A DNA stretch of 34,519 nucleotides. It comes from Spirochaetaceae bacterium. GTDB taxonomy: Bacteria > Spirochaetota > Spirochaetia > B11-G9. The DNA is taken from contig DAOWEB010000027.1 of assembly GCA_030638735.1 (NCBI GenBank), forward strand, positions 1 through 34,519, given 5' to 3'. The notes below the pieces were generated by a model that saw nothing but the letters and a program-made list of their open reading frames with translations, made no database searches and had not been told where the DNA came from. This document shows positions 17,368 through 34,519 of the stretch, piece by piece; the stretch's first letter is position 1, and each line of letters begins with the position of its first letter. The position numbers and the translations under genes are program-made.

Positions 17368-18345
17368 TCAGCGTGGAATGAGATTGATACGCTGTTCATG
17401 AATATCAGATCTGTTGCATATAAACTCCGGTTCTATTCCTGAAAACACATCCAGAACAGCCTGTGCTGCCTGTGCTGCAATACGGGTTTTACTTTCATAA
17501 GTCAGTGCAGCAGAATGAGGAGTAAGAATAACATTACTCATACTCATTAGCTTATCATTTATTTCAGGAGGCTCATTTTCAAATACATCAAGACCTGCTC
17601 CTGCAATAAGACCTATATCCAGTGCTTCAGCAAGTGCATTCTGATCGACAATTCCTCCACGGGAAGTGTTAATTAAAAAGGAAGAGGTTTTCATACAGCT
17701 GAGAATCTCTTTATCTACAAGATGACGGGTACTTTCAGTTTCAGGAATATGCAGAGAAACAATATCCGCCATGGAAAATAATTCACCAGGACTTTTAACT
17801 GTTTCAATTTCTGCATGTTCAGTAATAAATGGATCGTACCCTATTATTTTCATTCCAAATGCTGTACGGCACATATGTGCAACCCTGGATCCAATATTCC
17901 CAATGCCCATTACTCCTAGAGTCTTTCCAAACAGATCTGATAATTTACCATTTCTCCGCTCCATCCAGTCTCCATTCCGTACAGCTTTATCCATGACAAC
18001 AAGATGCTTTGAAAGTGACAGCATAAGCATAACTGCATGCTCTGCAACAGATTCGGTATTCATTCCGGAAGTATTACAGACAATAATACCCATATTCCCA
18101 GCCGCTTCAACATCAACATTACTCGTTCCGACTCCGGTACGGGATATAACAAGAAGACGCGGTGAATTTTCAAGTACCCCCCTGGAAAGGGTGACATTTG
18201 TTCTTAAAATAACAGCATCAGCATCTTCAATACTCTCCGCCAATGTATGTTCTGACGAATCTTTCATAACTATAATATCTGCTCTTCCCTGCAGAAGATC
18301 CATTCCAGCCCTATCAAGAGGCTGAGTAATAAGTATTTTCTTCAT
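17368..18345 (-). CDS. D-2-hydroxyacid dehydrogenase (SerA/phosphoglycerate dehydrogenase-like)
   Basis: A 325-residue NAD-dependent dehydrogenase. The Rossmann motif GIGNIG is at 147-152. The catalytic triad is visible: R229 (INTSRGG), E258 (DVFENEPP) and H277 (TPHSAALT). It lacks the C-terminal ACT domain of biosynthetic SerA, consistent with a catabolic hydroxyacid dehydrogenase acting on, for example, glyoxylate/glycolate or a sugar-derived acid. Last gene of Unit A, 19 bases after the DapA-family gene. The ribosome site is poor, so coupling to the previous gene is likely. Confidence 0.9.
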   Translation of the reverse strand: MKKILITQPLDRAGMDLLQGRADIIVMKDSSEHTLAESIEDADAVILRTNVTLSRGVLENSPRLLVISRTGVGTSNVDVEAAGNMGIIVCNTSGMNTESVAEHAVMLMLSLSKHLVVMDKAVRNGDWMERRNGKLSDLFGKTLGVMGIGNIGSRVAHMCRTAFGMKIIGYDPFITEHAEIETVKSPGELFSMADIVSLHIPETESTRHLVDKEILSCMKTSSFLINTSRGGIVDQNALAEALDIGLIAGAGLDVFENEPPEINDKLMSMSNVILTPHSAALTYESKTRIAAQAAQAVLDVFSGIEPEFICNRSDIHEQRINLIPR

Positions 18346-18364
18346 CTTTTATTTCAATCTCCAA

Positions 18365-19276
18365 TTAAAAATAGCTGAAAAAATCTAATTCCGTTAAGGA
18401 TTCCTTCATCTTTTGTCTCTGTTTTTCATTAAATACAGCAAGGGGATGGCGTGGATTACCGCCATGAAAACCTGCAAGATCCATTGCAGCCTTAACAGCT
18501 GACACACCACCGCTGCCTGACACAGCTTTGTTCATCAAGTAGAGACTAGTATGCAGACTACGTGCCATATCAAGATTTCCAGCACATACAGCAGAGTAAA
18601 GATCACAACATATATTGGGAACGGCATTAGCAAGAGAAAGAACTCCACCAGTAGCCCCGGTTAATAACGCAGGAAAGAAAAATCCGGCCGATCCAGCCAG
18701 GATATGAAAAGCATCATTCCCGCCAGTTGCAGCCAAATAACTATTCATACCTGCTGGTGAACTGTCCTTCATTCCAACGATGTTTGGATGGTCGGCTAAT
18801 TCTGCTGTCACCAAGGGAGGAATCTGTACTCCACCTGCAAAACCGGGGGCATTATACAAAAGAATGGGGACAGTAACTGAATCCGCTATCTTAAGGTAAT
18901 AACGCAGCAGTGTTGCACCGTCAATACGTTTAGCGAAGTAATGAGGAGTAAGAATACTTACAAAATCAACTCCAGTATCAATAGCTTTTTTTGAAAACTC
19001 GATTGTTTCCAGGGTAGATTCACGTGCACAACCGGCCATAACGACTTTATCTGCTTTATATTTCTCAAATATCCTTAGGATATCCAACTGATCCTCATCA
19101 TTCATACCAGCCCATTCACCATTACTTCCCAGAGCCAGATAGCCTGTCAGTTTTGTATTTCCCAACTTTTCAAGATTATATTCAAGCCAGTCAGCCCTTA
19201 TTTTATCCTTATCAAAGGGAGTAACTACAGGTGCAAATACTCCTCTCAGCTTCTCTTTTACAGCTTTCTTATCCAT
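18365..19276 (-). CDS. DapA-family aldolase
   Basis: A 303-residue class I aldolase of the dihydrodipicolinate synthase / N-acetylneuraminate lyase family. The Schiff-base lysine is K170 (GMKDSS), the catalytic tyrosine Y141 (LLYNAPG) and the pyruvate-binding loop is GSNGE (50-54, in place of the usual GTTGE). In a sugar operon it is more likely a 2-keto-3-deoxy-acid or 4-hydroxy-2-oxoglutarate aldolase giving pyruvate and an aldehyde than a lysine-pathway enzyme. AAAGGAG lies ten bases upstream. The start overlaps the phosphatase gene by 8 bases. Confidence 0.88.
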   Translation of the reverse strand: MDKKAVKEKLRGVFAPVVTPFDKDKIRADWLEYNLEKLGNTKLTGYLALGSNGEWAGMNDEDQLDILRIFEKYKADKVVMAGCARESTLETIEFSKKAIDTGVDFVSILTPHYFAKRIDGATLLRYYLKIADSVTVPILLYNAPGFAGGVQIPPLVTAELADHPNIVGMKDSSPAGMNSYLAATGGNDAFHILAGSAGFFFPALLTGATGGVLSLANAVPNICCDLYSAVCAGNLDMARSLHTSLYLMNKAVSGSGGVSAVKAAMDLAGFHGGNPRHPLAVFNEKQRQKMKESLTELDFFSYF

Positions 19277-20030
19277 GTTTTACTATCTCCTTTAATATTT
19301 TCAATGTGATCTCCCCGGATGAAAGATCAATATGGCAGCCACCCAACCGGACAGCTTCTTCTTTGCCACGATTACCCAGAGATGTAACTCTTAAATCTGC
19401 TTCCGTTAAATCTTCATTCTGTGTGTACCTGTTTACTGTAACCAGACATTTTATCCCGGCAGACTTTGCAGCTCTTAACCCGTTCTGACTATCTTCTACA
19501 ACCAGACAGTTTTCCGGAGCCAGTCCAAGTCCAAGAAGGGCAAGCTGATATATTTCAGGATCAGGTTTTTTATTATTTACAACATCTCCTGCCAATATTA
19601 AGTTGAATCTGCTTTTCCTGGTTTTACCAAGCAGCATTTTCATAAGAGTATTTACTGCAAGTTCATTTGAAGTTGAGCACACAGCAAGTTTCAAATCAGC
19701 CTCAATAATCTCATCCAGAAGTCTTATAACTCCAGGTCTTGGAATTATATCTCCATGTTCCAGCATTTCCATAAAGATCTCTGTCTTTCTTTTATGTAAC
19801 TGTGGAATTATTTCCTCTATATCAAAATCTAACTGCCTTTTTAAGAAATCATACTTCATTCGTTCTTTACCGCCACCAACTTTCAAAAGCGATCCGTAAT
19901 AGTTCTCATCCCATTCAATATCAAGATCAAATTCCTTAAATGCCCTGTTAAAAGCTACACGATGCCCATCGCGTTCTGTATCTGCAAGAACGCCATCCTG
20001 ATCAAAAATAACTGCCTTTAATTCTGCCAT
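19269..20030 (-). CDS. HAD-superfamily phosphatase, CbbY-like
   Basis: A 253-residue HAD hydrolase. Nucleophile D10 and acid D12 are in FDQDGVLADTE. The cap start (DGHRVAFNRAF, then YYGSLLKVGGGKERM) closely follows CbbY, the xylulose-1,5-bisphosphate phosphatase of Rubisco organisms and plants. Later motifs are CSTSNE and KKPDPEIYQLAL...VVEDSQNGLRAA. There is no Rubisco here. It could remove a bisphosphate side product made by the kinase, or produce a free sugar. The frame extends upstream to 20087, but the ATG at 20030 has AAGGA seven bases before it and follows the aldolase stop by 10 bases. Confidence 0.88.
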   Translation of the reverse strand: MAELKAVIFDQDGVLADTERDGHRVAFNRAFKEFDLDIEWDENYYGSLLKVGGGKERMKYDFLKRQLDFDIEEIIPQLHKRKTEIFMEMLEHGDIIPRPGVIRLLDEIIEADLKLAVCSTSNELAVNTLMKMLLGKTRKSRFNLILAGDVVNNKKPDPEIYQLALLGLGLAPENCLVVEDSQNGLRAAKSAGIKCLVTVNRYTQNEDLTEADLRVTSLGNRGKEEAVRLGGCHIDLSSGEITLKILKEIVKHG

Positions 20031-20040
20031 ATTTTCTTCC

Positions 20041-20895
20041 TTATGCTTTATTCTCAGAACCGAATTTATCCATAAATCCGGAGACAACTGGGATAAGCTG
20101 TTCCTGCATGAAACCCATCACTTTAACTGGTTCTCCGCAGTTCGGATCACTTGCAAGAAACTCTTTTACAGAATCTAGAAATGCCTTTTTTAACCTGGTG
20201 GATATATTTACTTTACACCCCCCAAGGTCAATACATCTGTGAAAAATCTCATCTGATAAACCTGTTCCTCCGTGTATTGCAATAAGTGAATCAGTCTTAT
20301 CTGCTATTTCTTTGAGTATGTCAAATGAGACTCTGGGAGTACCCTTATAATACCCATGAGCCGTACCGATGGCGGGAGCCAGGATATCGATTCCAGTTTC
20401 TGCAGCAAAGGAAATAGCCTCCTGAGGGTTTGCCAGATTTGCCTCATTCTGATTCACATGAATATCATCCTCCACCCCCACAATAGCACCAATCTCACCC
20501 TCAACAGCTGCACCAAAGGGTATTGCCATTCTAACAGCTTCTGATGTCAACCGAAGGTTTACTTCCATAGGAAAGCTGGAAGCATCAATCATTACCGATG
20601 ACCATCCTGCCTTAAGACAGCTTCCAAGGATATTGAGATCTTTACAATGATCAAGATGAAGAGCTACCGGTACCGATACCTTGTCTGCTGCTGCCTTAAC
20701 TGCAGCATAGAGACATTCAGGTCCATATAACCTTACAGTCTTTACCGAAGTTTGAAGTATTACAGGTGAATTTTTCTTTTCTGCAGCTTTAATAACCGAT
20801 ACAGCAGAAAGGGGATCAAGAATATTAAATGCCCCCACCGCATAAGATCCCTTTCTGGCTTTTTTAAGCATTTCAATGGGGTTTACATAACTCAT
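20041..20895 (-). CDS. Class II fructose/tagatose-bisphosphate aldolase-like protein
   Basis: A 284-residue zinc aldolase of the GatY/KbaY/FbaA family. Visible motifs: HLDHCKD (80-86; catalytic D82, zinc ligand H83), VEGEIG (131-136), GTAHG (177-181, zinc H180), IHGGTGL (207-213, zinc H208) and KVNIST (228-233), the phosphate-binding end. It cleaves a ketose phosphate into DHAP and an aldehyde. The exact substrate is unknown; with the xylulokinase-like kinase just upstream, a ketose 1-phosphate is plausible. AAAAGGAG precedes the ATG. Two bases separate it from the kinase gene. Confidence 0.9.
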   Translation of the reverse strand: MSYVNPIEMLKKARKGSYAVGAFNILDPLSAVSVIKAAEKKNSPVILQTSVKTVRLYGPECLYAAVKAAADKVSVPVALHLDHCKDLNILGSCLKAGWSSVMIDASSFPMEVNLRLTSEAVRMAIPFGAAVEGEIGAIVGVEDDIHVNQNEANLANPQEAISFAAETGIDILAPAIGTAHGYYKGTPRVSFDILKEIADKTDSLIAIHGGTGLSDEIFHRCIDLGGCKVNISTRLKKAFLDSVKEFLASDPNCGEPVKVMGFMQEQLIPVVSGFMDKFGSENKA

Positions 20896-20897
20896 TT

Positions 20898-22433
20898 TTA
20901 TCTCCTTTTTGCAAGTTCACGGTATACCGGTTGTAATACTTCATAGAGACTATGATATATACTGTATAAATCTTCATACAAACTCTTTTTAGATTTATCG
21001 GGAAATGTTTCTGTTTCTTTTTTAAGAATTCCAAGTGCTTCATCTACACTACTCCAGATGCCTACTCCCACACCGGCTATTAGAGCTGAACCAAAGGCAC
21101 CACCTTCACCACTCCCGCTTACAGTTGTTACCGGACACTGAAATACATCTGCCTGAATCTGTCGCCACAGAGGACTTATTGAACCTCCACCTGACGTACG
21201 AATCTCTGAGATAGAACTTCCCATCATGGATATCAATTCATATACATCCTTAAGACTGTATACAACACCTTCCATAACAGACCTTGTAATATCAGAACGT
21301 GTATGCTGTAAACTCAAACCGATAAATGCCCCCCTTGCGGAGGTATCAATATACGGACACCTTTCTCCTATTAAATAGGGAAGAAACAGTAAGCTTTCAG
21401 ATCCGGCTTTTGCTCCTGCTGCGGTTTCTTCCATGATAGTATAAACATCTTTCCCTGTTTCGAGAGCTTTGAGTTTCTCACCTTCTGCAAATGTATCCCT
21501 AAACCAGCGATAAGCTCCCCCCGCATTCAGGGTTACCCCCATAGCATGCCAGGAAGATGATGTATTATTGCAAAAAACCTGCAGGAGGCCTTCATGGTTC
21601 TGAAAAAATCGTTCCATTCCCATTGCCACAATACCTGCCGTACCAATAGTTGTTCCAATAATACCGGTTTTTATAAGGCCCATCCCTGTGGTCTGAATAA
21701 CTGAATCTCCTCCGCCTCCGGCAACACTTAATCCTTCCTGTAATCCAGTTAAATCTGCAGTTTCTTTATTTATCCTGCCCGATATTTCAGTTGATTCATA
21801 ACAGGCCGGTATTATTCCGGAAGGAATATCAAGAATCGAAAGAAGTTCTTTAGACCAGACTCTTCTTTTCACATCAAAAAGACCCGTTCCTGAAGCATCT
21901 GAAACTTCAGTTACTTTTTCTCCGGTAAGCCGGTAGCGAATGTAATCCTTTGGGTTAAGAAAAAGACTCATTTTTTCAAATACAGAAGGTTCATTTTCCT
22001 TCAGCCAGAGAAGTTTACTGCCAGTATACCCCGGCAGCATCCTGTTATTTGTCAACTTAAGAAGAGCCTCAACACCTCCGGCTCTATCTGTAATTTCCCT
22101 GCATTGCTGTTCCGAACGCTGGTCATTCCATAATATTGCCGGCCGTAAAACCGATCCTCTTTTATCAAGTGCAACAAGTCCATGCATCTGTCCACTCAGT
22201 CCCACTCCTGCAATATCTTTGGAATTGATACTGTTCTCTCCCAACAATTGTTTAATTCCAAGAACTACAGCCTGCCACCAATGCTCAGGATTCTGCTCTG
22301 CCCAACCTGCCTTCGGAGTAGACAAGGAATACTCATTTATTACAGATTTGATAATTTTACCTGTATCATCAATGATAATACTTTTACACCCGGAGGTTCC
22401 AATATCCAGACCCAATAAATATCTTCCAGTCAT
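20898..22433 (-). CDS. FGGY-family carbohydrate kinase, xylulokinase-like
   Basis: A 511-residue kinase. The N-terminal ATPase motif LGLDIGTSGCKS is at 8-18. SGQMHGLVALD (near 84) and AILWNDQRS match the xylulokinase clade. The late motif RTSGGGSISPLWRQIQADV is the FGGY C-terminal signature. The adenine-loop region reads AGGGGDSVIQTTG instead of the usual GGGDNAA-type stretch, so the substrate may not be xylulose. The start overlaps the aldehyde dehydrogenase stop by 4 bases, with AAGGA upstream. Role: phosphorylates a ketose or polyol for the aldolase that follows. Confidence 0.9.
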   Translation of the reverse strand: MTGRYLLGLDIGTSGCKSIIIDDTGKIIKSVINEYSLSTPKAGWAEQNPEHWWQAVVLGIKQLLGENSINSKDIAGVGLSGQMHGLVALDKRGSVLRPAILWNDQRSEQQCREITDRAGGVEALLKLTNNRMLPGYTGSKLLWLKENEPSVFEKMSLFLNPKDYIRYRLTGEKVTEVSDASGTGLFDVKRRVWSKELLSILDIPSGIIPACYESTEISGRINKETADLTGLQEGLSVAGGGGDSVIQTTGMGLIKTGIIGTTIGTAGIVAMGMERFFQNHEGLLQVFCNNTSSSWHAMGVTLNAGGAYRWFRDTFAEGEKLKALETGKDVYTIMEETAAGAKAGSESLLFLPYLIGERCPYIDTSARGAFIGLSLQHTRSDITRSVMEGVVYSLKDVYELISMMGSSISEIRTSGGGSISPLWRQIQADVFQCPVTTVSGSGEGGAFGSALIAGVGVGIWSSVDEALGILKKETETFPDKSKKSLYEDLYSIYHSLYEVLQPVYRELAKRR

Positions 22434-23899
22434 TTCCTTAACTCTCTATTTTGATATTTAATACGTATATGCTTTGCCTTCAGGTATTCAAAAAGCCCTT
22501 CCGGTCCATGTTCATACCCATTACCGCTGTCTTTCCATCCTCCATAAGGAGCATTGATGGTGCCGGCATCAACATTATTTATGGCAACATTTCCGGAAAT
22601 AAGATTCCTTGCCAATGTATCAGCCTTTATCAAAGAATTTGTATAGGCATAACAGGCAAGACCAAAGGAAACATCATTTGCCAGAGCAATAGCTTCATCA
22701 AGAGTATCATAAGCCATTATTCCCACTACAGGCCCAAAAGTTTCTTCCTGCATTACAAGCATGGAATGATCAGCATCCGCAAGGATAGTTGGCTCAAAAA
22801 AGAACCCTTTACTAAAATTTTCAGGTCGCTTACCACCAATAACCAGCCTCGCCCCTTTTCCCAGCGCATCCCTAATATGCTGTTCCGATTTACAAACTCC
22901 ATCCTCACTGGCCATAGGTCCAAGATCACAGGAATTATCAATAAGTCCGTTACCAATAACCAGAGTTTTAGCTCTTGCCGCCATAGATTCGATGAAGCGT
23001 TCATAGATATTCCGCTGTACATAAATTCGATTAATTGCAATACATATCTGGCCCATATTCCGAAAAGAACGCCGTACAGCACCTGCTACAGCTGCCTCAA
23101 AATCGCTGTCACAACACACAATTAAAGGGCATTGCCCTCCCAGTTCAACAGAAACTTTTTTAAACGCTGATGCACACATCTGCACCAGCTTCTTTCCTAC
23201 TTCTGTAGAACCTGTAAACGCGACTTTCTTAATTCCAGGTGATTCGACCAGGATTTTCCCCACGTCACTCCCTGACCCAGGACATACATTTATTACTCCT
23301 GCCGGCAAACCGGCATCAACAAGACATTCAATAAATAAAATTGGAGAAAGTGGTGTTAAAGAAGGCGGTTTAACCACGAGAGTGCACCCAGCTGCGAGTG
23401 CACCACCTATCTTCCATGCCACCAGTTCAACGGGATAATTCCATGGCGAAATGGCTGCACATGGACCAACCGGATGATATATAACATGACTGTCAATTGC
23501 TCTATCTGAGTTGGCTATTATACGTCCATACACACGCTCGCCCTCTTCCGCGTAGTAACGCAGAATATCTGCTCCCTTCTGAACCTCACCAATTGCTTCT
23601 TTAACAGGTTTTCCCTGCTCCTCTGTCAAAATCAGAGCTATCTGCTCCTTGCGTTCTTCTACAATTTGAGAAGCTTTCCTTAAAATACGTCCCCGATCAG
23701 AGGGAGAATATTTTGACCATACCTTAAAAGCCTGTTCTGCAGATTTAACAGCATTATTTACATCATCAGCTGTTGCCCTGAATAGAGAAGCTATAACTTC
23801 TTCCGTAGCAGGGTTTTGGACTTCAAAACTTCCGACATCACCGGAATCAATCCATTTCCCATTTATAAGCATCTGCCGGCAGTATGGATCCTTGTTCAT
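22430..23899 (-). CDS. NAD(P)-dependent aldehyde dehydrogenase
   Basis: A 489-residue ALDH superfamily enzyme, closest by eye to succinate-semialdehyde/glycolaldehyde types. Catalytic residues: N154 (SPWNYP), K177 (VVKPPS), E252 (ELGGQCP) and C286 (NMGQICIA). In the pathway it probably oxidises the aldehyde released by one of the aldolases, such as glycolaldehyde, lactaldehyde or glyceraldehyde. It overlaps both neighbouring genes by 4 bases. Confidence 0.93.
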   Translation of the reverse strand: MNKDPYCRQMLINGKWIDSGDVGSFEVQNPATEEVIASLFRATADDVNNAVKSAEQAFKVWSKYSPSDRGRILRKASQIVEERKEQIALILTEEQGKPVKEAIGEVQKGADILRYYAEEGERVYGRIIANSDRAIDSHVIYHPVGPCAAISPWNYPVELVAWKIGGALAAGCTLVVKPPSLTPLSPILFIECLVDAGLPAGVINVCPGSGSDVGKILVESPGIKKVAFTGSTEVGKKLVQMCASAFKKVSVELGGQCPLIVCCDSDFEAAVAGAVRRSFRNMGQICIAINRIYVQRNIYERFIESMAARAKTLVIGNGLIDNSCDLGPMASEDGVCKSEQHIRDALGKGARLVIGGKRPENFSKGFFFEPTILADADHSMLVMQEETFGPVVGIMAYDTLDEAIALANDVSFGLACYAYTNSLIKADTLARNLISGNVAINNVDAGTINAPYGGWKDSGNGYEHGPEGLFEYLKAKHIRIKYQNRELRK

Positions 23900-24291
23900 T
23901 TGTCCTGATCCTCTTGAGAAACACTACATGTTACCCAAATTAGAACCAGCGGAATATTTCCTGTTTGCCGGGTAGTATGAAACTCACCTGGAGGTACATA
24001 CTGGGCATCCCCGGTATGAATGGGATATTCATCATCCCCCACCTGCATAACACCCGATCCCGATACAACGTAATAGACCTCTTCCAGATCATCATGGCTG
24101 TGACCAGTAGTCATACCTGTGGGGTAAATAATAGTTTGACCAAGTTTAAGTGAATGAGAAGGTGAAGTTTCAGGATCAATCATGAAATAAGTATCGCGAA
24201 GAATCGATTCCGGTCTGTTTTTTACCTGGAAACGAAGGGACCGCTTGTCATTATCCGGAGAACAATCATTGATATTGATTTTGAATTCCAT
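23896..24291 (-). CDS. Single-domain cupin
   Basis: A 131-residue cupin. Metal ligands: H64 and H66 (GHSHDDLEEVYYV), an acidic residue at 70/71 and H105 (PPGEFHTT). The TGHSH-x-x-x-EEVYYV block resembles cupin-type phosphoglucose isomerases, so sugar isomerase activity is possible, as is a ligand-binding or mutarotase-like role. GAGGAG lies five bases before the ATG, two bases after the PPC gene. Confidence 0.85.
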   Translation of the reverse strand: MEFKININDCSPDNDKRSLRFQVKNRPESILRDTYFMIDPETSPSHSLKLGQTIIYPTGMTTGHSHDDLEEVYYVVSGSGVMQVGDDEYPIHTGDAQYVPPGEFHTTRQTGNIPLVLIWVTCSVSQEDQDK

Positions 24292-24293
24292 TT

Positions 24294-24731
24294 CTACTCC
24301 TCACCATTAAGCAGACTAACCTGAAGCTTTTTATCATATTTTCGATGGAGTTTGAAATCATTGAATTTAATTATCAGGATTTCTCCTAAGTACAATATCT
24401 CAGAACCATCTTCCAGGTGTCCGCCATAAGCTTCATCTTCCCCACAGGTAAGCGCAACATGTAGATGTGGTTCTCCATTTGCAATCAAGCCATCTACAGA
24501 TACCAATTCCAGAGGTTTTTCCAAAGTAAAATAATTATTTAACGGTGGAAACTCTGTATGTGTAATATGATGCAGATTGGCATTTTTAAGAGTTCCTATA
24601 CCTGAAATAACTGCACCATTAATAATATTATGTTTTTTAATCGCCTCACGAACTGATTCAAGCATCATATCACCCGGCTCAAATCCTATTGCAATAAATT
24701 CATAATTTCCTGAATAATTAAAACTTTTCAC
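24294..24731 (-). CDS. PPC/DUF296-domain protein
   Basis: A 145-residue protein of the plants-and-prokaryotes-conserved (PPC, PF03479) domain. The core motif GEPHLHVALTCGEDEAYGGHL (about 90-110) includes the conserved histidines that bind a metal in crystal structures. Bacterial members are often called DNA-binding by analogy with plant AT-hook proteins, but this protein has no AT-hook, so an enzymatic or binding role is equally likely. GTG start with AAAGAGG six bases upstream. First gene after the internal promoter. Confidence 0.82.
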   Translation of the reverse strand: MKSFNYSGNYEFIAIGFEPGDMMLESVREAIKKHNIINGAVISGIGTLKNANLHHITHTEFPPLNNYFTLEKPLELVSVDGLIANGEPHLHVALTCGEDEAYGGHLEDGSEILYLGEILIIKFNDFKLHRKYDKKLQVSLLNGEE

Positions 24732-24763
24732 TTAATACCTCTTTTATAAACGGAAAATTTTAT

Positions 24764-24793
24764 CCTATAATGACAGCTGATCCTGCATGTCAA
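24764..24793 (-). promoter_or_regulatory. Putative internal sigma70 promoter before the PPC gene
   Basis: On the minus strand, -35 TTGACA (24788-24793) and -10 TATAGG (24764-24769) are 18 bases apart, right after the ADP-ribosylglycohydrolase gene ends. TGACA and TGTCA form a short dyad across the spacer. It would let the catabolic genes be transcribed apart from the transporter genes. Confidence 0.5.
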
Positions 24794-24796
24794 CTC

Positions 24797-25849
24797 TTAT
24801 AAATTATTTATAGCAGCTAAAATGCCTTCAGCATCTTCCTTCATAGTTCTTTTTGAATTTGTGTACGGGTTATTGACAGTTGCTTCTTCAACCTGCTCAA
24901 TCCATTTTTGAGATATGGCTCCAACTCCCCTTAATGCACCTGAAAGCCCCCCTGCAGAAGCAGCAAGGCAATCAGTATCACGGCCGAAATTCGATGATAC
25001 AATTACGCTCTCATTTGGATCACCATCTGTTGCCTTGAATACGGCTAAAGCTTTAACCACATTCTCATTTATCATCGAAATTGCGTATGGGTAGTTGACA
25101 TCACAATATATTTCATTTAGTTCTTTTCTTATCCCCATAGGGTCGGAATACCTGCCTACCAGTTCAAGCGCTTCCTCGATTAATATTCTTGGTGATTTAT
25201 GATTGCAGCTGGCATAAGGGATTTTGCTGCTTGCCCGCTTCAAAGCAGCTTCCAAAACTGAATCAACAGTAGCAGTGTCTTTAAGAGCTTCAATTATTGC
25301 AGCCCCATAGATCGCACCCCACTCAAACGATTCACTAAAGTGCGGCTGATATACACTTCCAATCTCATTGAGATCCAATTCTGCAGCTTCCGTATTTCCT
25401 GCATTAACCAGATAAACAGGATGAAATGAACGTGCTGTCACTACAAGATTCGGATATCGACAGAAACTTCCCAAAGCACGAGGCTCAACAAGCCCGGATT
25501 TGGCAATATAGAATATTTGAATATCATAGGGTTCACTTATATATTTCATTTTTTCAGGATCCAGAACTTTCAACCAGGTATCTACCAAATCTTTTGAACT
25601 AATCCTTCCTTTTTTCTCTATAATTGCTGTGCAAAGCAATTTTTGACGCTCTATTCCATCTTCCGTCGAGCCTGCCGGTCGATCCCAAACTCCTTCATAC
25701 TGAGCATGTACATAGGGATAAAGATCATCCATAACTCCATACACTTTTTTAATTTTTTCCAGACCCCAGCCTTCAACCAGAGCACCCATTGCTGAGCCGA
25801 TTCTTGATCCGGCAATACAACCATATATTCCTGAAAGTAATTCTGTCAT
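24797..25849 (-). CDS. ADP-ribosylglycohydrolase-family protein
   Basis: A 350-residue protein of the ADP-ribosylglycohydrolase (DraG/ARH, PF03747) fold: N-terminal GCIAGSRIGSAMGALVEGW, then STEDGIERQ (61-69) where the family has a TDD-type magnesium motif, and NFGRDTDCLAASAGGLSGALRG (287-308) where it has GGDTD. The first motif is altered (T-E-D), but T62, E63, D64, D291 and D293 could still bind metals. It lies between sugar permease genes and sugar-metabolic genes, 9 bases after MalG. An N- or O-glycosidase acting on a riboside or other imported glycoside is a better guess than protein de-ADP-ribosylation. Confidence 0.85.
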   Translation of the reverse strand: MTELLSGIYGCIAGSRIGSAMGALVEGWGLEKIKKVYGVMDDLYPYVHAQYEGVWDRPAGSTEDGIERQKLLCTAIIEKKGRISSKDLVDTWLKVLDPEKMKYISEPYDIQIFYIAKSGLVEPRALGSFCRYPNLVVTARSFHPVYLVNAGNTEAAELDLNEIGSVYQPHFSESFEWGAIYGAAIIEALKDTATVDSVLEAALKRASSKIPYASCNHKSPRILIEEALELVGRYSDPMGIRKELNEIYCDVNYPYAISMINENVVKALAVFKATDGDPNESVIVSSNFGRDTDCLAASAGGLSGALRGVGAISQKWIEQVEEATVNNPYTNSKRTMKEDAEGILAAINNL

Positions 25850-25858
25850 TTTTAGTAC

Positions 25859-26716
25859 CTATCCTTTTACCGACCCTGCAGTAACTCCAATCTGGAGATA
25901 TTTCTGAAAAACAAGATATACAACAAGAGGAATAAACATGGCAATCATGACTCCTGCAGTTAGTTTTACCATGTGGATACCATGTTCTCCTTTCATCATA
26001 GCAATACCCAGAGTGACAGTTCTCATACTATCCTTGACAAGCAGCAATAATGAGAAAGGAAGCTCACTCCACATAGTCCTGAATCCGATAATAGCCAGGG
26101 TAACCAGCATTGGTCTGCCAATGGGCAGCATAATCCTGAACATTATCTGATAGATGCTTGCTCCATCGATTTTCGCTGATTCCATCAGTTCCTTTGGTAC
26201 CGTCGCATAATAGGTGGACATGATATATGTACCAAAAAGGGAAAAATACGACACCCATACAAGTATGAGTCCCAGGTAATTGTTAACTAATCTCAGTTTT
26301 ATACAGATCAGGTATACCTGAGAAGCAATAATTATTTGTGGAAATATCATCATAAAAAGAACCAGCAGAAAGATCGGTATTCGACCTGGAAACCTTAATC
26401 TTCCGAAAGCAAAGCCAGCCATGCTGCAGATTACCAGATAAAAAATAAGGGCCAAAGGAACAACAATAATACTGTTTCTTAAGTAAATTGCCATTTTTGC
26501 CTTCGTAAATGCATATACATAGTTTTCCAGAGTAATATCTTTAACCATAGCAATGGGGGAATCAACAAATTCGCTCTCACTTTTCAATGAGGTATTTAAA
26601 CTGTATACAAGTGGGATCAGAGCAAGGAATACAAAAAACATCATAATAATATACATAGGTAGTTTTGTTTTTAACCACCCCAATAATTTCTGCCTATTCA
26701 ATGATCTATGAAACAT
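25859..26716 (-). CDS. MalG-type sugar ABC transporter permease
   Basis: A 285-residue membrane protein with six hydrophobic segments. The EAA motif is visible as ELMESAKIDGASIYQIMFRIMLPIGRPML, the ATPase docking loop of CUT1-family permeases. It overlaps the upstream permease by 11 bases. No ATPase gene is in Unit A; CUT1 systems often share one MsmK/UgpC-type ATPase encoded elsewhere. Confidence 0.93.
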   Translation of the reverse strand: MFHRSLNRQKLLGWLKTKLPMYIIMMFFVFLALIPLVYSLNTSLKSESEFVDSPIAMVKDITLENYVYAFTKAKMAIYLRNSIIVVPLALIFYLVICSMAGFAFGRLRFPGRIPIFLLVLFMMIFPQIIIASQVYLICIKLRLVNNYLGLILVWVSYFSLFGTYIMSTYYATVPKELMESAKIDGASIYQIMFRIMLPIGRPMLVTLAIIGFRTMWSELPFSLLLLVKDSMRTVTLGIAMMKGEHGIHMVKLTAGVMIAMFIPLVVYLVFQKYLQIGVTAGSVKG

Positions 26717-27623
26717 TAGATCCCTTCCTTACCAGATAAATTTGGGCAACTGCTATAAGAGAGCAAAAGAAAAAGAGGATCACTGCCCAGGCACTGGCAT
26801 AGCCCATATTCGAATACCTAAATCCATAGATATATATACCAAACTCCATAGTATACGAGGAAAACCCAGGACCTCCTCCGGTAAATGCATATAAGAATCC
26901 AAACATCCTTGCAAATACCTCTATAAATGAAAGTACAACCCAAAACTGAATACCAAATACCACCCCTGGAACCGTCACTGAAAAAAAGGAGCGCCACCAG
27001 CCTGCTCCGTCAATCCTTGCCGCATCATAGAGAACAGGGCTGATTCCACTCATGGCTGCCAGAAAATAAATACAACCGAATCCCAGCCTTGACCAAACTA
27101 CAAACATTGATCCGACAGTATGTATGACTGTTTTTGTGCTGCTGATCCACCTCACAGTCAGCATATCCAGTCCTGCAGATCTAAGGATGTTATTCAGCAC
27201 CCCATAATCACGAAAGAAAATATTCAGCAAAACTCCAAGTATTACATAACCCAGAATATTTGGAAGATAAATAATCGACCTAAAAACACTCCATCCCTTC
27301 AATCCATCCCGAAGAATCGCTGCAAGCAATACAGTTATAAACGCACTAATTGGAATATACAGGACAAGGATCAGAATATTTTTTAGTGAATACCAGAATA
27401 TTTCATCATGAATAATTTTCCTGAAGTTTTTAAGACCTACCCATACAGGTTTACCAAAGCCTTTCCACTCAGTAAAGGCATAGTAAAAGTTGGATAATAC
27501 CGGAACTATAATAAAAACAGAAAGCAATACCAATAAAGGAAGTATTAAAACATAAGCATCCCGGGTATCTGCCGACACATATTTATGATTGTGGCTAAAT
27601 CTTTTCATTGTTGAACTTACCAT
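26706..27623 (-). CDS. MalF-type sugar ABC transporter permease
   Basis: About 305 residues with six hydrophobic segments and the EAA-type loop LYDAARIDGAGWWRSFFSVTVPG. The frame opens at 27683, but that stretch is a 15-bp hairpin. In-frame ATGs at 27623 (MVSSTMK) and 27608 (MKRFSHNHK) are better; AAGGA lies just before the first, so the exact start is unsure. It forms a heterodimer with the MalG-type protein. Confidence 0.9.
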   Translation of the reverse strand: MVSSTMKRFSHNHKYVSADTRDAYVLILPLLVLLSVFIIVPVLSNFYYAFTEWKGFGKPVWVGLKNFRKIIHDEIFWYSLKNILILVLYIPISAFITVLLAAILRDGLKGWSVFRSIIYLPNILGYVILGVLLNIFFRDYGVLNNILRSAGLDMLTVRWISSTKTVIHTVGSMFVVWSRLGFGCIYFLAAMSGISPVLYDAARIDGAGWWRSFFSVTVPGVVFGIQFWVVLSFIEVFARMFGFLYAFTGGGPGFSSYTMEFGIYIYGFRYSNMGYASAWAVILFFFCSLIAVAQIYLVRKGSNVS

Positions 27624-27643
27624 ATCCTTGCTGTATAAGATAA

Positions 27644-27677
27644 ATGATATGCGAAGCAAAACTGCTTCACATATCAT
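27644..27677 (-). repeat. Hairpin between the Unit A binding-protein and permease genes
   Basis: ATGATATG-C-GAAGCA (27644-27658) and TGCTTC-A-CATATCAT (27663-27677) pair over 14 bp with one C/A mismatch and a 4-base loop. No T-run follows on the minus strand. It sits 21 bases after the binding-protein stop, the same place as the malE-malF intergenic hairpins that protect upstream mRNA and lower downstream expression. Role inferred. Confidence 0.75.
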
Positions 27678-27698
27678 AATCAATCAATTTCACCGGCT

Positions 27699-28997
27699 CT
27701 AGCGTGATGATTCCAAAATCGCCTGAACTTTCTTTATATACTCATCAACACTAAGTTCATGGGCATTGAAAATAAGAGAATCATAATCAATAGATTTCTG
27801 CCTAACCTCGGAAGTAATGTACCGCTTCAGGTCGGGTGTACTATTGGTTTTAAGATAACCGAGAATTTCCATAAGCTGAGGATAACCCAAACTACTAAGA
27901 TCAACATTGACATTGGGAACCATAGCACCGGTTTCATTAACAAGGATCTTAGGCCCCTCTCCGGAAGCATATGCTCTTAAATATTCAGCAGCAAGATCAA
28001 TATTTTCTGAATAGGAAAAAATACCATATCCTATACCTGCTAACTGATTCATCTGCCTGTCTTTATACTTTGCACCTGGATGATTGATATTAGGAAAATA
28101 ACCAATATTATCTTTACCCAGTGCATCAGCATAATCCTTCCAATGGGCAATGTCGGAAATCAAACCCAGATAAAGTGCGCCTTTCCCAGCCTTAAACTGG
28201 TCAACAGAATCCATAAAAATAGGCTGTCCTGCACCTCTGGGGTCCAGATACTCTTTAACACTAAGCTCATTAATCATCTCTATAATAGTCACAAACTCAG
28301 GATCACTAAAATTACTAATTCCGGTCCTAAATCCCTCAATACCTTCTTTTCCATAGAAATTCGTCGCAAGACTCCTCCGGAGCCATTCAGAACCATATGA
28401 AGGCGTATTCCCCCAAATAATTGGAGTGATACCGGAACTTTTCAGTTTTGCACATGCACTAAGAAAATCACTCCAATCTGTAGGGGGTTGATCTGCATTC
28501 AAACCAGCTTTTTCAAACAAAGCCTTATTGTAGTACCAACCTAATCCCTGCACTGTTAACGGAACAAGTTTTATACCTCCATTGAAATCATTATCAGTTG
28601 TACAGGAGAGCCAAACATCCTCAGATATTTCATCTCTCCATTCATCAATGTAAGAATCCAGGGACACAAGATAATCTGCAAATACCCACATTTTCGGATC
28701 AACTGCACCCATAGCTACATCAGGTCCTGATCCGGAAGCAACGGCAGCTCTAAGTATATCATAGTATTCATCATGTGGTTGAGCAACGTGTTCGATAATA
28801 ACATTTGGGTGTTCTTTAATAAAAAGATCATCGATAGCTTTCATAGCACTACCCATCTTCTCTTCACCATACTTGTAATCCCACACTACCAGGGTTACAA
28901 CTCCCTCCCCTTCCTTTTCTTTTTCACCTGCTGAGAACACATTTACTGGAATCATTATTACCAGTATAAGGATAATCAGCCCTTTAACTTTGTTCAT
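27699..28997 (-). CDS. CUT1-type extracellular sugar-binding protein
   Basis: A 432-residue solute-binding protein of the MalE/UgpB class. A signal peptide of about 22 residues (MNKVKG, hydrophobic run, VFSA) is followed by GEKEKEGEG with no lipobox Cys. Family blocks include VTLVVWDYKYGEE, GPDVAMGA, GWYYNKALFEKAGL-PPTDWSDF and the late PNVNVDLSS. GGAGG lies seven bases before the ATG. First gene of Unit A, expressed from the promoter near 29154-29183. The ligand is unknown; an oligosaccharide or glycoside is typical for this class. Confidence 0.93.
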   Translation of the reverse strand: MNKVKGLIILILVIMIPVNVFSAGEKEKEGEGVVTLVVWDYKYGEEKMGSAMKAIDDLFIKEHPNVIIEHVAQPHDEYYDILRAAVASGSGPDVAMGAVDPKMWVFADYLVSLDSYIDEWRDEISEDVWLSCTTDNDFNGGIKLVPLTVQGLGWYYNKALFEKAGLNADQPPTDWSDFLSACAKLKSSGITPIIWGNTPSYGSEWLRRSLATNFYGKEGIEGFRTGISNFSDPEFVTIIEMINELSVKEYLDPRGAGQPIFMDSVDQFKAGKGALYLGLISDIAHWKDYADALGKDNIGYFPNINHPGAKYKDRQMNQLAGIGYGIFSYSENIDLAAEYLRAYASGEGPKILVNETGAMVPNVNVDLSSLGYPQLMEILGYLKTNSTPDLKRYITSEVRQKSIDYDSLIFNAHELSVDEYIKKVQAILESSR

Positions 28998-29153
28998 ATA
29001 GAACCTCCAAAAGGATATTTTTTAACCAGACAACGTCCGGCATTATTACACGTGACTACTTAAACCAGTACAACCCGATTAAACATACTGCAAAACCATC
29101 CATTACAGTTGTTTCCTGTTTTCATCACAAACAAGCACACATTTATTATGTTC

Positions 29154-29183
29154 ATTATGTGCATTTATATTAAGTTTTGTCAA
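29154..29183 (-). promoter_or_regulatory. Sigma70-type promoter of the Unit A binding-protein gene
   Basis: On the minus strand, -35 TTGACA (29178-29183) is a perfect consensus and -10 CATAAT (29154-29159) lies 18 bases on. The leader would be about 150 bases. The -35 is inside the shared element, so a bound repressor would block polymerase. Confidence 0.6.
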
Positions 29184-29198
29184 TATATTTGTTTGTTT
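29175..29198 (-). promoter_or_regulatory. Shared element, copy A (candidate DeoR operator)
   Basis: Plus-strand TTTTGTCAATATATT followed by TGTTTGTTT. The same 15 + 9 bases, with one inserted A between them, occur at 33241-33265 upstream of the glycosidase-like gene. The TTTG/GTTTG repeats resemble direct-repeat half-sites of DeoR-family repressors. The DeoR gene starts 122 bases away. Confidence 0.65.
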
Positions 29199-29319
29199 TT
29201 TGGTATTATTTTCTATATTCTTAAGATATAAACATTTGATCTCCTGTATGACTTCTTGAAATAATATTAAAGAGGGAGTAATGTTAGAAAAAGAGATCCC
29301 TGAATATGAAGGATAAAAC

Positions 29320-30102
29320 ATGAGCAAGAAAAGCAATCGTATAAAGGAAATACTAACCTTCCTCCACAATCAGGGTGAAGTCTCTGTCAAAGAGCTTGCA
29401 CAATACCTGTTGACCTCTGAAATGACCATCAGAAGGGATTTGAACTTTTTAGAAGAAGAAAAGATTGTCAGAAGGATCCACGGGGGTGCAGTCTTAAACA
29501 GCTCCTATCTTATTAATACAGATATTCGTTACCTCTTCGGAGAAGAAATCGAGAAAAGTATTGAACAAAAGAACCTGATAGGTCATGCATCATCATTATT
29601 GATAAAAAATGATGAAACTATTGGGTTTGATATCGGTACTACCATTCCCTTTATTGCAAGAAATTTGAACAGAGACATCAGTATAACAGCTGTATGCACT
29701 ACTTTTGAGTGTGCAATAGAGTTATACAACAAGAAGAACATAAACCTCCTTATTACCGGTGGATTTCTGCACCGGGAATCAGATGTATTTCGAAGTGAAG
29801 AAGGTGTGCAAATTTTAAAGAAAACCCGTATGGACAAAGCATTTATATCCGCTGGTGGAATCGATGCTGACCTTGGCTTGACCTGTTACCATGAATTTCA
29901 TATAGAAATAAAAAAATTACTAATGGAATCCAGCAAACAAGTTATACTAATAGCAGATTCGAGTAAATTCGGACATGTCAAACCTTCCTATTTCGCAAAT
30001 CTCTCCGATATCGATACACTGATTACCGATAAAGGCATTCCGGATACTTACAGAAAACTAACAGTAGATCTGGGAATAGAGTTGATTATTGCCGGGGAGT
30101 GA
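29320..30102 (+). CDS. DeoR-family transcriptional repressor
   Basis: A 260-residue sugar-sensing repressor. The N-terminal helix-turn-helix (about 7-57) has the DeoR signature VSVKELAQYLLTSEMTIRRDLNFLEEEKIVRRIHGGAVL. The C-terminal phosphosugar-binding domain (about 75-235) includes FDIGTTIPFIARNL, LLITGGFLHRESDVF and ADSSKFGHVKPSYFA. Such proteins usually release DNA on binding a phosphorylated sugar intermediate. AAGGA lies six bases before the ATG. It is divergent from Unit A and convergent with the amidohydrolase gene, and probably controls both sides through the shared element. Confidence 0.92.
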   Translation: MSKKSNRIKEILTFLHNQGEVSVKELAQYLLTSEMTIRRDLNFLEEEKIVRRIHGGAVLNSSYLINTDIRYLFGEEIEKSIEQKNLIGHASSLLIKNDETIGFDIGTTIPFIARNLNRDISITAVCTTFECAIELYNKKNINLLITGGFLHRESDVFRSEEGVQILKKTRMDKAFISAGGIDADLGLTCYHEFHIEIKKLLMESSKQVILIADSSKFGHVKPSYFANLSDIDTLITDKGIPDTYRKLTVDLGIELIIAGE

Positions 30103-30183
30103 TATTCAATTTCTGAATTTATGTTTACTATTGTATACTTATGCAAGAGAGCCCAATCCCACACTCTAAAGACATATACTTTT

Positions 30184-30942
30184 TTACAATCCAAAGAGTT
30201 CTGCCATGTTCTTTCCTAAAACCCATTGTCTGTCTTCCTCTGGAAAATCTTCAAGAATGGCTTTCATCTTCGCTACTTCTGCATGCATCAGAGCAAAGGG
30301 AGTGTCACTCCCAAAACAAACCCTTTTGGCACCTAGAACCTTTATTGCTTTAAGCACGGCAACATCCCTTACCGCACTTGCAATCAGGATCATGTTTGGA
30401 CACTCCTGAGCAAATTCTATTGCTGCATTGCTCAAATCGGCAAATGCAGCACCACCCATATGGACTACAAGGATTCGGAGTTCCGGAAATCTCTTTGCTA
30501 TCTTGGCAGCACGGAATGGATGAGTATGTTCATAGGCATCCCCACCAATATGGAAGGCTAGAATACCCCTTAATTTAACAATCTCTTCAATCACCGGCAG
30601 TGAAAGGTCAGGATCATCTATGTAGAAAGAATTCTGTGCACCATTTAGCTTCACACCAGGAAACCCGTATTCAAGAATAGATCTCCTTACAGCATTTCTT
30701 GCATTTTCAATACCAAGATTAGGATCGGCCCATCCAAACCCCACAATTCTCTCAGGATACTTTTGCTGAGCTTCATATACATACTGGTTAGCCTTATCAA
30801 TTTCCCGAAGGTAGGGGGGTTGTAACCAGACAAGAGCTTTATCGACACCAGCCCTATCCATCCTTTGAATCAACTCATCATGAGTAATACTATTTCCACC
30901 TTCCGGAGTTGGAGAGATGTGACAATCGGCATCTAATATCAT
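30184..30942 (-). CDS. Amidohydrolase-family (PF04909) protein 1
   Basis: A 252-residue TIM-barrel protein of the amidohydrolase_2 / ACMSD-like family. The first metal motif is D4-A-D6-C-H8 (DxDxH form), then GFGWADPN, GVKLNGAQN, FHIGG, VVHMGG and CFGSDTPF, and a GKNMAELFGL C-terminus typical of the family. Members hydrolyse lactones or amides or decarboxylate. AGGAGG lies six bases before the ATG at 30942, so I use this rather than the upstream frame start at 30966. It follows the glycosidase-like gene by 74 bases, in the same direction. Confidence 0.87.
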   Translation of the reverse strand: MILDADCHISPTPEGGNSITHDELIQRMDRAGVDKALVWLQPPYLREIDKANQYVYEAQQKYPERIVGFGWADPNLGIENARNAVRRSILEYGFPGVKLNGAQNSFYIDDPDLSLPVIEEIVKLRGILAFHIGGDAYEHTHPFRAAKIAKRFPELRILVVHMGGAAFADLSNAAIEFAQECPNMILIASAVRDVAVLKAIKVLGAKRVCFGSDTPFALMHAEVAKMKAILEDFPEEDRQWVLGKNMAELFGL

Positions 30943-31016
30943 CTGAAACCTCCTGCAATATTTCATGCTTTTGTATCTTCTATAAAACTAAAAAACTCAC
31001 AAAATATTTCAATTAT

Positions 31017-33152
31017 CTACAAGTCTTTCGATTCAACCAGGCAGTTTCTGCTGAAACTTCCTTTGATTTCCTGATCGTTTCCCCTTATAATGAATCCCTT
31101 TGCCGGGAGAATATCTCCATCCACTATTTTGTAATTAATTATTCCAAAGTTCACAATAATAGAAGTTCCGTTTGCATAGCTCGTCATCTGCACACTATAG
31201 TCATCACTCAAAACCTTGTGCTCTACAAGTTCAACAGTGGCCGTCTCCCGATGTAAACTCGATATAATTTCATACGTGGTAATAAACAGAGGTTTCATTG
31301 TCGGCCAATGCTCTGTTGTAATAACCCAATAAGAGGGATTCCCCTGAATCAGATCAGCAAGGAAATGATCTACATGATCTTCCCGGCCATACGGCATTCC
31401 GTGCTGCCAGTGGCAAACTACAGCATCATGATAGACTAAAGGGAATAACGGGATCCGAACACCAAAGTCATATGCAATTACCGGATTATAGAAACCTACG
31501 GATTCCCCCGGAAGCCCTTCAAAATAATCACTCTCAAGAACAGCCCAATCGTTACCGAATTCAGCACCAACCACAAGCCCCCTGTCTCTAAGAGATTTTA
31601 ACAAATGCTTACGATTTGCTACATCCTGCTCCCTTGTCATTGGATGATCCAGACTATAACACTCAATAGGAGGATTTGCTGCTATTGTATCGAGATAATG
31701 TGCATTTGGCTCCAATTCTCTTTGAATCAAGTCTAAATTATAATCAGCAAACTCAATGGCTTTGCTTGAACAAGTTATGACAACAGGACCTCCTGCCCAC
31801 ATACCTCCTTCAACAGGACTACCGTCACTGTTTCTCGTAACAACCCTCTCAACCTCTGTTATTAGAGGAGAATTGAGGAAAAAATCCTGATAATTATCAT
31901 CCAGAGCAATCACATATCCAAGTTTCACTGCTTCATCGCAAACTTCCCTAAGACCCTGCAGACCACCAGCTGATTCGTGAGGCGGCCAAATATCAGGATG
32001 CATATTGCAGAATCCATTTCTCTGCCATCCTTCAATTGAAATTAATGCACGATCAACACCCATGTTCCACAGCTCTGAGACAACTTCCTTTGCAGATTCA
32101 AAAGAAGTCAATACATTATTGTATCCATCAAGTACCGGATCATCCCAACTACGAAATTCAGGTTTATTAATCCGGTTGTAAGCAATAAATATCTTTACAT
32201 TCGGTGCGCCAATTAATTTCTCTACATTAGGATTTTCTGATATTTTTTCCTCCAGGGATTTATAGCGACCAACTTCCCTGGCATATTCACGGTATCGCTT
32301 TGCCATATCCACATATGTCCCCTCTAAAATAAGTTCAATGGTGCACTTCCGTGCAAAGCTGAATTCACCATGAGATGATCTCCAAACAGGTGTCAAAGCT
32401 GAAATTCTGGCACCTCTCCCTACCTCACGGGGTTCACCATGAGGACCGGTTTTTTTAATTTCTCCTTTTACAGAATTACAAACAACCTTCAATGAAGCAT
32501 CCTCAAATGTATGAACATTAATGAAAATTCCAGAACTTTTCCCATTTTCACACTTATAAGCTCCATACCAGGGCATACTAATACAATTAGGAGCTCCACC
32601 CCCAAATGGAAGAATCTGAGTAATATCTACAATATTTGCCCAAAGGTTATGCATATACCGCATAAAACCACCCTTCAATGTTGATGGAACAATACATCCA
32701 TAACCCTTTGGCACTACAAGATATCCATCCTCTTTGGCAGAAAGAAGATGGACCAGACAGCTTGGATATAATAACTCGATAAACTTATATCCAGGTGGAA
32801 GTATAAGAGATTCTATCCGGACATCCACCTTTGGAAGATTTTCGTGTACAGTCAGATTAACAAGAAGCTGGATATCGATAGAGCCATTATCACACCGGGC
32901 ATCTTTAAACTGAATAACTGCTGATTCTTCTGCAGAATGAGGTTTTTTTTGAACGTCTACTTTCCCTGGGTTTGTTCCGAGAGCAAAATCCAATATGCGC
33001 CCCTGATATTCAATTTTAATAAGGCCGGAATATTCCTGATACTGTGGTTTTCCCCATTCGAATCCATCTACCGGATCGCTAACCGTAAACTCACCTTTGT
33101 TCCCAATCTCAACTTTGATCCGTGAATTCTCTAATAACACTATCTGCTCCAT
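31017..33152 (-). CDS. Putative intracellular TIM-barrel glycosidase, unassigned family
   Basis: A 711-residue protein. The N-terminal ~280 residues look like a beta-sandwich and the middle (about 310-600) like a TIM barrel, with an ALISIEGWQRNG strand, ALDDNYQDFF, HYLDTIAANPP (D488) and VVGAEFGNDW (E531); the last two sit where retaining glycosidases of the GH101/DUF5696/DUF6259 type carry nucleophile and acid. The rest is a small beta domain. No signal peptide, so it would act inside the cell on an imported glycoside. AGGAGG lies 12 bases before the ATG at 33152; the frame itself extends to 33209. Family assignment is by resemblance only. Confidence 0.7.
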   Translation of the reverse strand: MEQIVLLENSRIKVEIGNKGEFTVSDPVDGFEWGKPQYQEYSGLIKIEYQGRILDFALGTNPGKVDVQKKPHSAEESAVIQFKDARCDNGSIDIQLLVNLTVHENLPKVDVRIESLILPPGYKFIELLYPSCLVHLLSAKEDGYLVVPKGYGCIVPSTLKGGFMRYMHNLWANIVDITQILPFGGGAPNCISMPWYGAYKCENGKSSGIFINVHTFEDASLKVVCNSVKGEIKKTGPHGEPREVGRGARISALTPVWRSSHGEFSFARKCTIELILEGTYVDMAKRYREYAREVGRYKSLEEKISENPNVEKLIGAPNVKIFIAYNRINKPEFRSWDDPVLDGYNNVLTSFESAKEVVSELWNMGVDRALISIEGWQRNGFCNMHPDIWPPHESAGGLQGLREVCDEAVKLGYVIALDDNYQDFFLNSPLITEVERVVTRNSDGSPVEGGMWAGGPVVITCSSKAIEFADYNLDLIQRELEPNAHYLDTIAANPPIECYSLDHPMTREQDVANRKHLLKSLRDRGLVVGAEFGNDWAVLESDYFEGLPGESVGFYNPVIAYDFGVRIPLFPLVYHDAVVCHWQHGMPYGREDHVDHFLADLIQGNPSYWVITTEHWPTMKPLFITTYEIISSLHRETATVELVEHKVLSDDYSVQMTSYANGTSIIVNFGIINYKIVDGDILPAKGFIIRGNDQEIKGSFSRNCLVESKDL

Positions 33153-33240
33153 ATTTTTGTCTTGCCTCCTACAGTACAAATCCAACAAAATTTCTAACAT
33201 TTTGACCATTACTTACATCATAATCACACATTTTATCATA

Positions 33241-33265
33241 TTTTGTCAATATATTATGTTTGTTT
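33241..33265 (-). promoter_or_regulatory. Shared element, copy B (candidate DeoR operator)
   Basis: Plus-strand TTTTGTCAATATATT, one A, then TGTTTGTTT: the same bases as copy A at 29175-29198. It overlaps a minus-strand TTGACA -35 box of the glycosidase-like gene, 89 bases before its start codon. The matching placement in two promoters supports a common regulator. Confidence 0.65.
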
Positions 33266-33456: not shown

Positions 33457-34470
33457 TTACGATAAAAGATTTTGATATGTTTCCATAAGGAGATTTTTCA
33501 TATTACCTCCCATAATTCTGTTTGTATTTAGTTCATTCCTAAGTAATGAAGCTTCCAGTTCGTGAATAAGAGATTTAAGCCCACCAAAATTCCAGACCTG
33601 CAAGCCATATGGAAAATCACTGGCCCATGCAAGATTTTCAATAATTGAAGTTCCTTTATTGGAAAAGTACAACAGATCATTTCTTATATGTGTATCGTGT
33701 TTTGCACTCTCAACAAACATTATATTAGAATGGTTTTTACCAAGAAATAAGCTATCCTGATATACATCCTCAGCATCAATATAGGAAGCACCCCCTCCTC
33801 CCATATGAATTGCCAATAATTTTGAATTTTCAAACTTTTCTGCAAGAAAACGCAATCCCGATACTGAAGTATATTTAGTATCAGCTCCAAATTGAAATGC
33901 AGGGACCGCCTTTTTTTTTATAATATGGGTTACAATCTCAACTACCTGCTCACTATTTATCATAAATCGGTTCTGAGCAGGATTTATTTTTATTATACCA
34001 AATCCAAAATGATCAACACAGATATCTACCATTTCTATTGCCAGATCTTTTCCAAGAGCAGCCGGGTCTGTCCATCCTGCAGGTATAATCCTTTCCATAT
34101 ATTTTATAGAAGAATCATAGATATATTTATTTGCAGCAAAAAGAGATTCAAAATTATGCTGCTCATCTTCTCCAAAATATTGTGTTACCGAAGGATTCTG
34201 CCAGGATAAACAGGATAAAGACATATCGATTTTTGACAAATCCATGCTGAAAACCAGCTCATCCATATCAGCTGGTTTTCCATGGAAGTATAAAAAATCC
34301 TGCTTTACTTTCTTTGCCATAGACTGACTCAGAAGATTGCTATTGCTGATATGAGTATCTGAATCTATAATTAATTTATCATTACTCGAAATTAAATAAT
34401 CAAGTTGACTGGAAATTCTAACTTTTGCCTGTTTTGCACCTTTGCGAGAGACCTTTTTAGTTTTCTCCAC
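33457..34470 (-). CDS. Amidohydrolase-family (PF04909) protein 2, uncertain N-terminus
   Basis: A 337-residue homologue of the amidohydrolase at 30184-30942: IIDSDTHIS metal motif, AGWTDPAALG, GIIKINPAQN, FQFGAD, AIHMGGGG and ASDFPYG correspond block by block. It is longer, with an insertion after the first motif. The start is doubtful: an in-frame TGA lies two codons before the GTG at 34470, no ribosome site is visible, and the first ~16 residues (including SRKGAKQAK) look like translated dispersed-repeat DNA. The gene may be 5'-truncated or start at a non-standard codon. It has a separate terminator and may not belong to the same transcript as the glycosidase-like gene. Confidence 0.75.
   Translation of the reverse strand: MEKTKKVSRKGAKQAKVRISSQLDYLISSNDKLIIDSDTHISNSNLLSQSMAKKVKQDFLYFHGKPADMDELVFSMDLSKIDMSLSCLSWQNPSVTQYFGEDEQHNFESLFAANKYIYDSSIKYMERIIPAGWTDPAALGKDLAIEMVDICVDHFGFGIIKINPAQNRFMINSEQVVEIVTHIIKKKAVPAFQFGADTKYTSVSGLRFLAEKFENSKLLAIHMGGGGASYIDAEDVYQDSLFLGKNHSNIMFVESAKHDTHIRNDLLYFSNKGTSIIENLAWASDFPYGLQVWNFGGLKSLIHELEASLLRNELNTNRIMGGNMKNLLMETYQNLLS
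34431..34470. repeat. Short TTTGCACC/TTTGCGAGAG repeat-like segment
   Basis: The stretch contains GTTTTGCACCTTTGCGAGAG. It resembles a GC-rich dispersed repeat (TTTGCGCCTTTGCGAGAG type) that I recall from many bacterial genomes. Here it overlaps the putative N-terminus of amidohydrolase 2. Identification is from memory of the motif; copy number in this genome is unknown. Confidence 0.35.
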
Positions 34471-34519
34471 TTGGGATCACGAATCCTTTCCGCCAGTAGC
34501 AGAAACTGCCTATTTCTCC

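Follow-up and report, generated by a model that had tools for sequence, protein, structure and literature searches.

The 34.5-kb stretch of spirochaete DNA analysed here (the window) contains two copies, S1 and S2, of a promoter/operator element that is common to two operons, a conclusion that is well supported. As judged from the sequence, a small local regulon probably has its promoter/operator regions at S1 and S2, with the DeoR-family protein encoded at 29320-30102 as the predicted binder. The features on which this reading draws are as follows.

29175-29198: S1 element, TTTTGTCAATATATT-TGTTTGTTT, between the ABC-transporter operon, which it precedes, and the divergent deoR gene (sequence)
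33241-33265: S2 element, TTTTGTCAATATATT-A-TGTTTGTTT, preceding the glycosidase-like gene (sequence)
29154-29183, minus strand: sigma-70-like promoter TTGACA-18-CATAAT (consensus score 11/12)
33220-33249, minus strand: sigma-70-like promoter TTGACA-18-GATTAT (10/12; TG before the -10)
29109-29134: dyad TTGTTT-n14-AAACAA, a short way downstream of the S1 promoter, a rival or additional candidate DeoR site
29320-30102, plus strand: DeoR-family regulator gene, 260 aa, HTH_DeoR and DeoRC domains (Pfam)
27699-28997, minus strand: gene for an extracellular sugar-binding protein, the first in the S1 operon (PF01547, E 1e-30)
17368-27683, minus strand: rest of the likely S1 operon (ORF order, small gaps, families)
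31017-33152, minus strand: glycosidase-like protein, DUF5696 / GH129-related, ATG 33152 behind AGGAGG (PF18952, E 8e-25; PF11308, E 6e-14)
30184-30966, minus strand: amidohydrolase (PF04909, E 5e-27)

The 15 bases of TTTTGTCAATATATT are the same at 29175-29189 and 33241-33255, and TGTTTGTTT comes directly after them in S1 (29190-29198) and after one extra A in S2 (33257-33265). The sites thus have 24 bases in common with one indel, as the preliminary description had reported, and they are placed equally relative to the -35 and -10 boxes. The minus-strand sequence of the two copies is AAACAAACA(T)AATATATTGACAAAA, an AT-rich run into a perfect -35 box. The claim that each copy overlaps a minus-strand TTGACA likewise holds: the -35 boxes (29183-29178 in S1 and 33249-33244 in S2) lie inside the element and are followed, after 18-bp spacers, by acceptable -10 boxes (CATAAT at 29159-29154 and GATTAT at 33225-33220), with GA next in both. 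These promoters are the top two promoter-like matches in an 18.5-kb scan of both strands, and no other match in that scan carries an exact TTGACA. Transcription is predicted to start near 29147 and 33213, which would give a leader of ∼150 nt to the binding-protein start at 28997 (GGAGG upstream) and one of ∼60 nt to the glycosidase start at 33152 (AGGAGG upstream); the start of a longer glycosidase ORF at 33209 is less likely and would leave almost no leader. The element itself contains no clear inverted or direct repeat, and no dyad is preserved between S1 and S2. The one-base indel and the missing preserved repeat or dyad are unlike a textbook operator.

The likeness of S1 and S2 as a whole is extremely unlikely to be due to chance. 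A window of this size does yield 15-base repeats by chance, and an exact one is unremarkable here because there are 11 repeated 15-mers in the window, although TTTTGTCAATATATT is the sole one among its intergenic regions. Local alignment of the S1 and S2 intergenic regions scores 48, a value reached by none of 2000 dinucleotide shuffles (mean 22.6, maximum 39); the corresponding Gumbel p is 5.7e-6, or ∼4e-4 after correction for the 66 intergenic pairs, and the second-best intergenic pair in the window scores 29. The earlier statement that chance identity is very unlikely therefore stands for the whole element and is slightly too strong for the 15-mer alone. The empirical control was a set of 137 intergenic regions, taken from 21 further contigs of the same genome and compared in 9316 pairs. 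Forty-nine pairs score at least 48, and most of the top pairs that we inspected belong to long, dispersed repeat families. S1 and S2 do not belong to such a family: the best match to their element elsewhere in the control sample scores 30. The genome has several dispersed intergenic families, of which CTCCTTCGGTTGCTGAGATCGTTCCTCATCGCTTCGCTCTTCCGG and GTACAGACGTAGCATGCTACGTC are examples, at more than ten of the loci read.

Both copies are rare sequences in the genome and beyond it. The 15-mer core carries no genome-wide signal, because 84 matches with up to two mismatches compare with 85 for the reversed control. The full element, in either register, has two copies in the genome, S1 and S2 alone, rather than many copies unrelated to sugar genes; one further match to the long element, with three mismatches, is at the chance level of the control. 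The genome is a 4.3-Mb draft in 431 contigs, ∼90% complete, so that one more full copy could be missed. Among the 390 genomes of the class that were scanned, the full element is absent from the other 389. Two copies in the genome and none in the rest of the class fit a local regulon and not a global one, and there is one element at each target promoter.

The genes at the two sites are those that the preliminary description had named, a binding-protein operon with the DeoR gene adjoining at S1 and the glycosidase-like gene at S2. The DeoR protein is complete, with an N-terminal helix-turn-helix (PF08220, E 8e-21, residues 7–62) and a C-terminal DeoRC sensor domain (PF00455, E 2e-43, residues 81–238). 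It reaches none of the cut-offs (at least 244 bits) of the named NCBIfam equivalogs AgaR, GlpR, DeoR and SrlR, the best score being 168 bits. Downstream of the binding protein, the likely S1 operon encodes two permeases, an ADP-ribosylglycohydrolase-like protein, a PCC-domain protein, a cupin, an aldehyde dehydrogenase, a XylB-like kinase, a class II aldolase, a HAD protein, a DHDPS-like protein and a hydroxyacid dehydrogenase (the permease, cupin, dehydrogenase and HAD names are from reading of the sequence). A strong 15-pair hairpin followed by a T-rich stretch (27677-27644, minus strand) lies between the binding-protein and first permease genes and is a probable transcript stabiliser or partial terminator. 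The amidohydrolase gene begins 50 bp after the glycosidase-like gene, and the two are probably co-transcribed. The locus looks accessory, since no relative of the DeoR protein within the genus exceeds 37% identity and the XylB-like kinase was not found in the family's other genomes (E <= 1e-100).

Relatives of the DeoR protein provide a parallel for this layout. In proteins 46–49% identical (L076, L077 and L079) the recognition helix SEMTIRRDL is kept. At two of these loci, L076 and L077, from two other genomes (G450 and G480; DeoR 48–49%), a strong element is common to the promoters of a ribose-type ABC operon and of deoR, with promoter-pair scores of 150 and 44, and contains TTGTTTATAATAGTTTCGAATGAACAA or a close variant. 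These loci are an independent parallel for an element repeated at sugar-ABC and deoR promoters, although the element sequence is another one: TTGTTTATAATAGTTTCGAATGAACAA is a dyad over the -10 box, whereas S1/S2 differ in sequence, symmetry and position, and the transporter here is of the binding-protein type. The L076/L077 element hints at TTGTT(T/C)AT as a half-site. In L076 (65-425 and 10583-10943), ∼100 bp of promoter are near-identical before the ABC operon and deoR, as if recently copied. The closest DeoR protein, at 57% identity (L043), lies among unrelated oxidoreductase genes, has the helix SPATVRRYL against SEMTIRRDL here, and has no S1/S2-like element upstream. A relative at 42% has a weak, marginal S2-like match upstream, with a score that 14 of 1000 shuffles reach. 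More distant relatives, at five loci and others, carry a TGTTATnTTTnTAACA-type palindrome close to the deoR start or the divergent gene, which is likely the operator of a distant DeoR subgroup.

DeoR is the best candidate for the protein that binds the element, because neither site has any other regulator gene beside it; the link from DeoR to the element is a prediction from sequence. We consider binding by another regulator, either global or encoded elsewhere, very unlikely, as the site of a global regulator should occur more than twice and no non-DeoR regulator gene adjoins S1 or S2. It is quite unlikely, too, that the element is simply a duplicated or convergent strong promoter, an AT-rich upstream element plus a consensus -35 with no operator function. 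The identical core does centre on TTGACA with AT-rich sequence upstream, as would be expected of any strong promoter, and in L076 an entire ∼100-bp promoter is duplicated. However, the two sites agree best outside the hexamers, the agreement reaches upstream into TGTTTGTTT, the spacers and -10 boxes diverge, and the genome's other promoters do not carry the element.

The dyad at 29109-29134 allows a further arrangement, possible though unlikely, in which DeoR controls the S1 operon through the dyad and the shared element is bound through TTGTTTGT alone or not at all. This dyad is the sole one in the window, where 0.2 are expected, and its half-site matches TTGTTTAT of the DeoR relatives with the same recognition helix. 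TTGTTT is enriched in the S1 region (4 against 0.84 expected, 3/500 shuffles), and both S1 and S2 contain TTGTTTGT, as does one arm of the dyad. Yet the glycosidase promoter is without such a dyad, one occurs in 19 of 100 shuffles, and the long shared element would go unexplained; in the S2 region TTGTTT has no clear excess (2 against 0.73). Together, the TTGTT(T/C)AT half-site and the presence of TTGTTTGT in S1, S2 and the dyad point to the TGTTTGTTT part as the likeliest DeoR contact and to the dyad as a possible extra or alternative site, with the caution that the half-site arguments are weak and were made after looking.

We thus favour control of both operons by DeoR through the shared element. 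The earlier description held that the element defines a DeoR regulon; its presence at two operon promoters, its rarity and the adjoining DeoR gene agree with this, while DeoR as the binder is our prediction. Sugar-phosphate intermediates are the effector class of the DeoR family. DeoR would cover the -35 box and the sequence upstream of it at both minus-strand promoters and, when the sugar is absent, keep RNA polymerase off them. A phosphorylated pathway intermediate would then bind the C-terminal domain and release DeoR. Such a switch would jointly control the ABC transporter and catabolic operon (28997 to ∼17368) and the glycosidase-like/amidohydrolase operon (33152 to 30184), operon extents being predicted, and deoR itself may be autoregulated via the divergent S1 region. 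This is probably a local sugar switch of an ordinary, well-known kind with a new sequence. A more unusual reading seems improbable, in which the operator would be asymmetric and tolerant of a one-base difference in spacing, and DeoR would control an as yet undescribed pathway leading from a GH129/DUF5696-like glycosidase into a kinase-aldolase route. As a regulatory principle the system would be ordinary; its use lies in tying an orphan glycosidase-like gene and the amidohydrolase to the transporter/catabolic operon, which helps to guess the substrate.

DeoR-family sugar regulators elsewhere are mostly local, each controlling one to several operons with a motif of its own (PMC3870299). The DeoR-type RhaR regulons of Rhizobium, Thermotogales and Chloroflexales resemble the arrangement described here in having the regulator gene beside an ABC/catabolic operon, few targets that include transport and kinase/aldolase genes, and a regulator-specific motif (PMC3870299). 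They differ in that RhaR motifs consist of a pair of imperfect direct repeats with a 10–11 bp periodicity (PMC3870299), a pattern that is not preserved between S1 and S2, and the gene content here is not that of a rhamnose pathway.

A search for an orthologous locus with the same gene neighbourhood, for use in footprinting, found none. Footprinting via the glycosidase-like gene failed: at E <= 1e-60 a search of the phylum's 392 other genomes yielded no homologue, and in other phyla its relatives reach 26–28% identity only. Homologues of the binding protein and permeases occur in six other genomes at 39–44% identity. At the three loci read (L048, L050 and L051) they lie beside a LacI-like regulator, as identified from reading of the sequence, and none carries the S1/S2 element. 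A paralogous transporter in the same genome likewise adjoins a LacI-like gene and has AT-rich look-alikes only. The contig ends where the window does (34400-34519), and close to this end the first ∼20 codons of the ORF at 33457-34470 (MEKTKKVSRKGAKQAKVR...) look like a dispersed repeat that is read through, and not like true protein.
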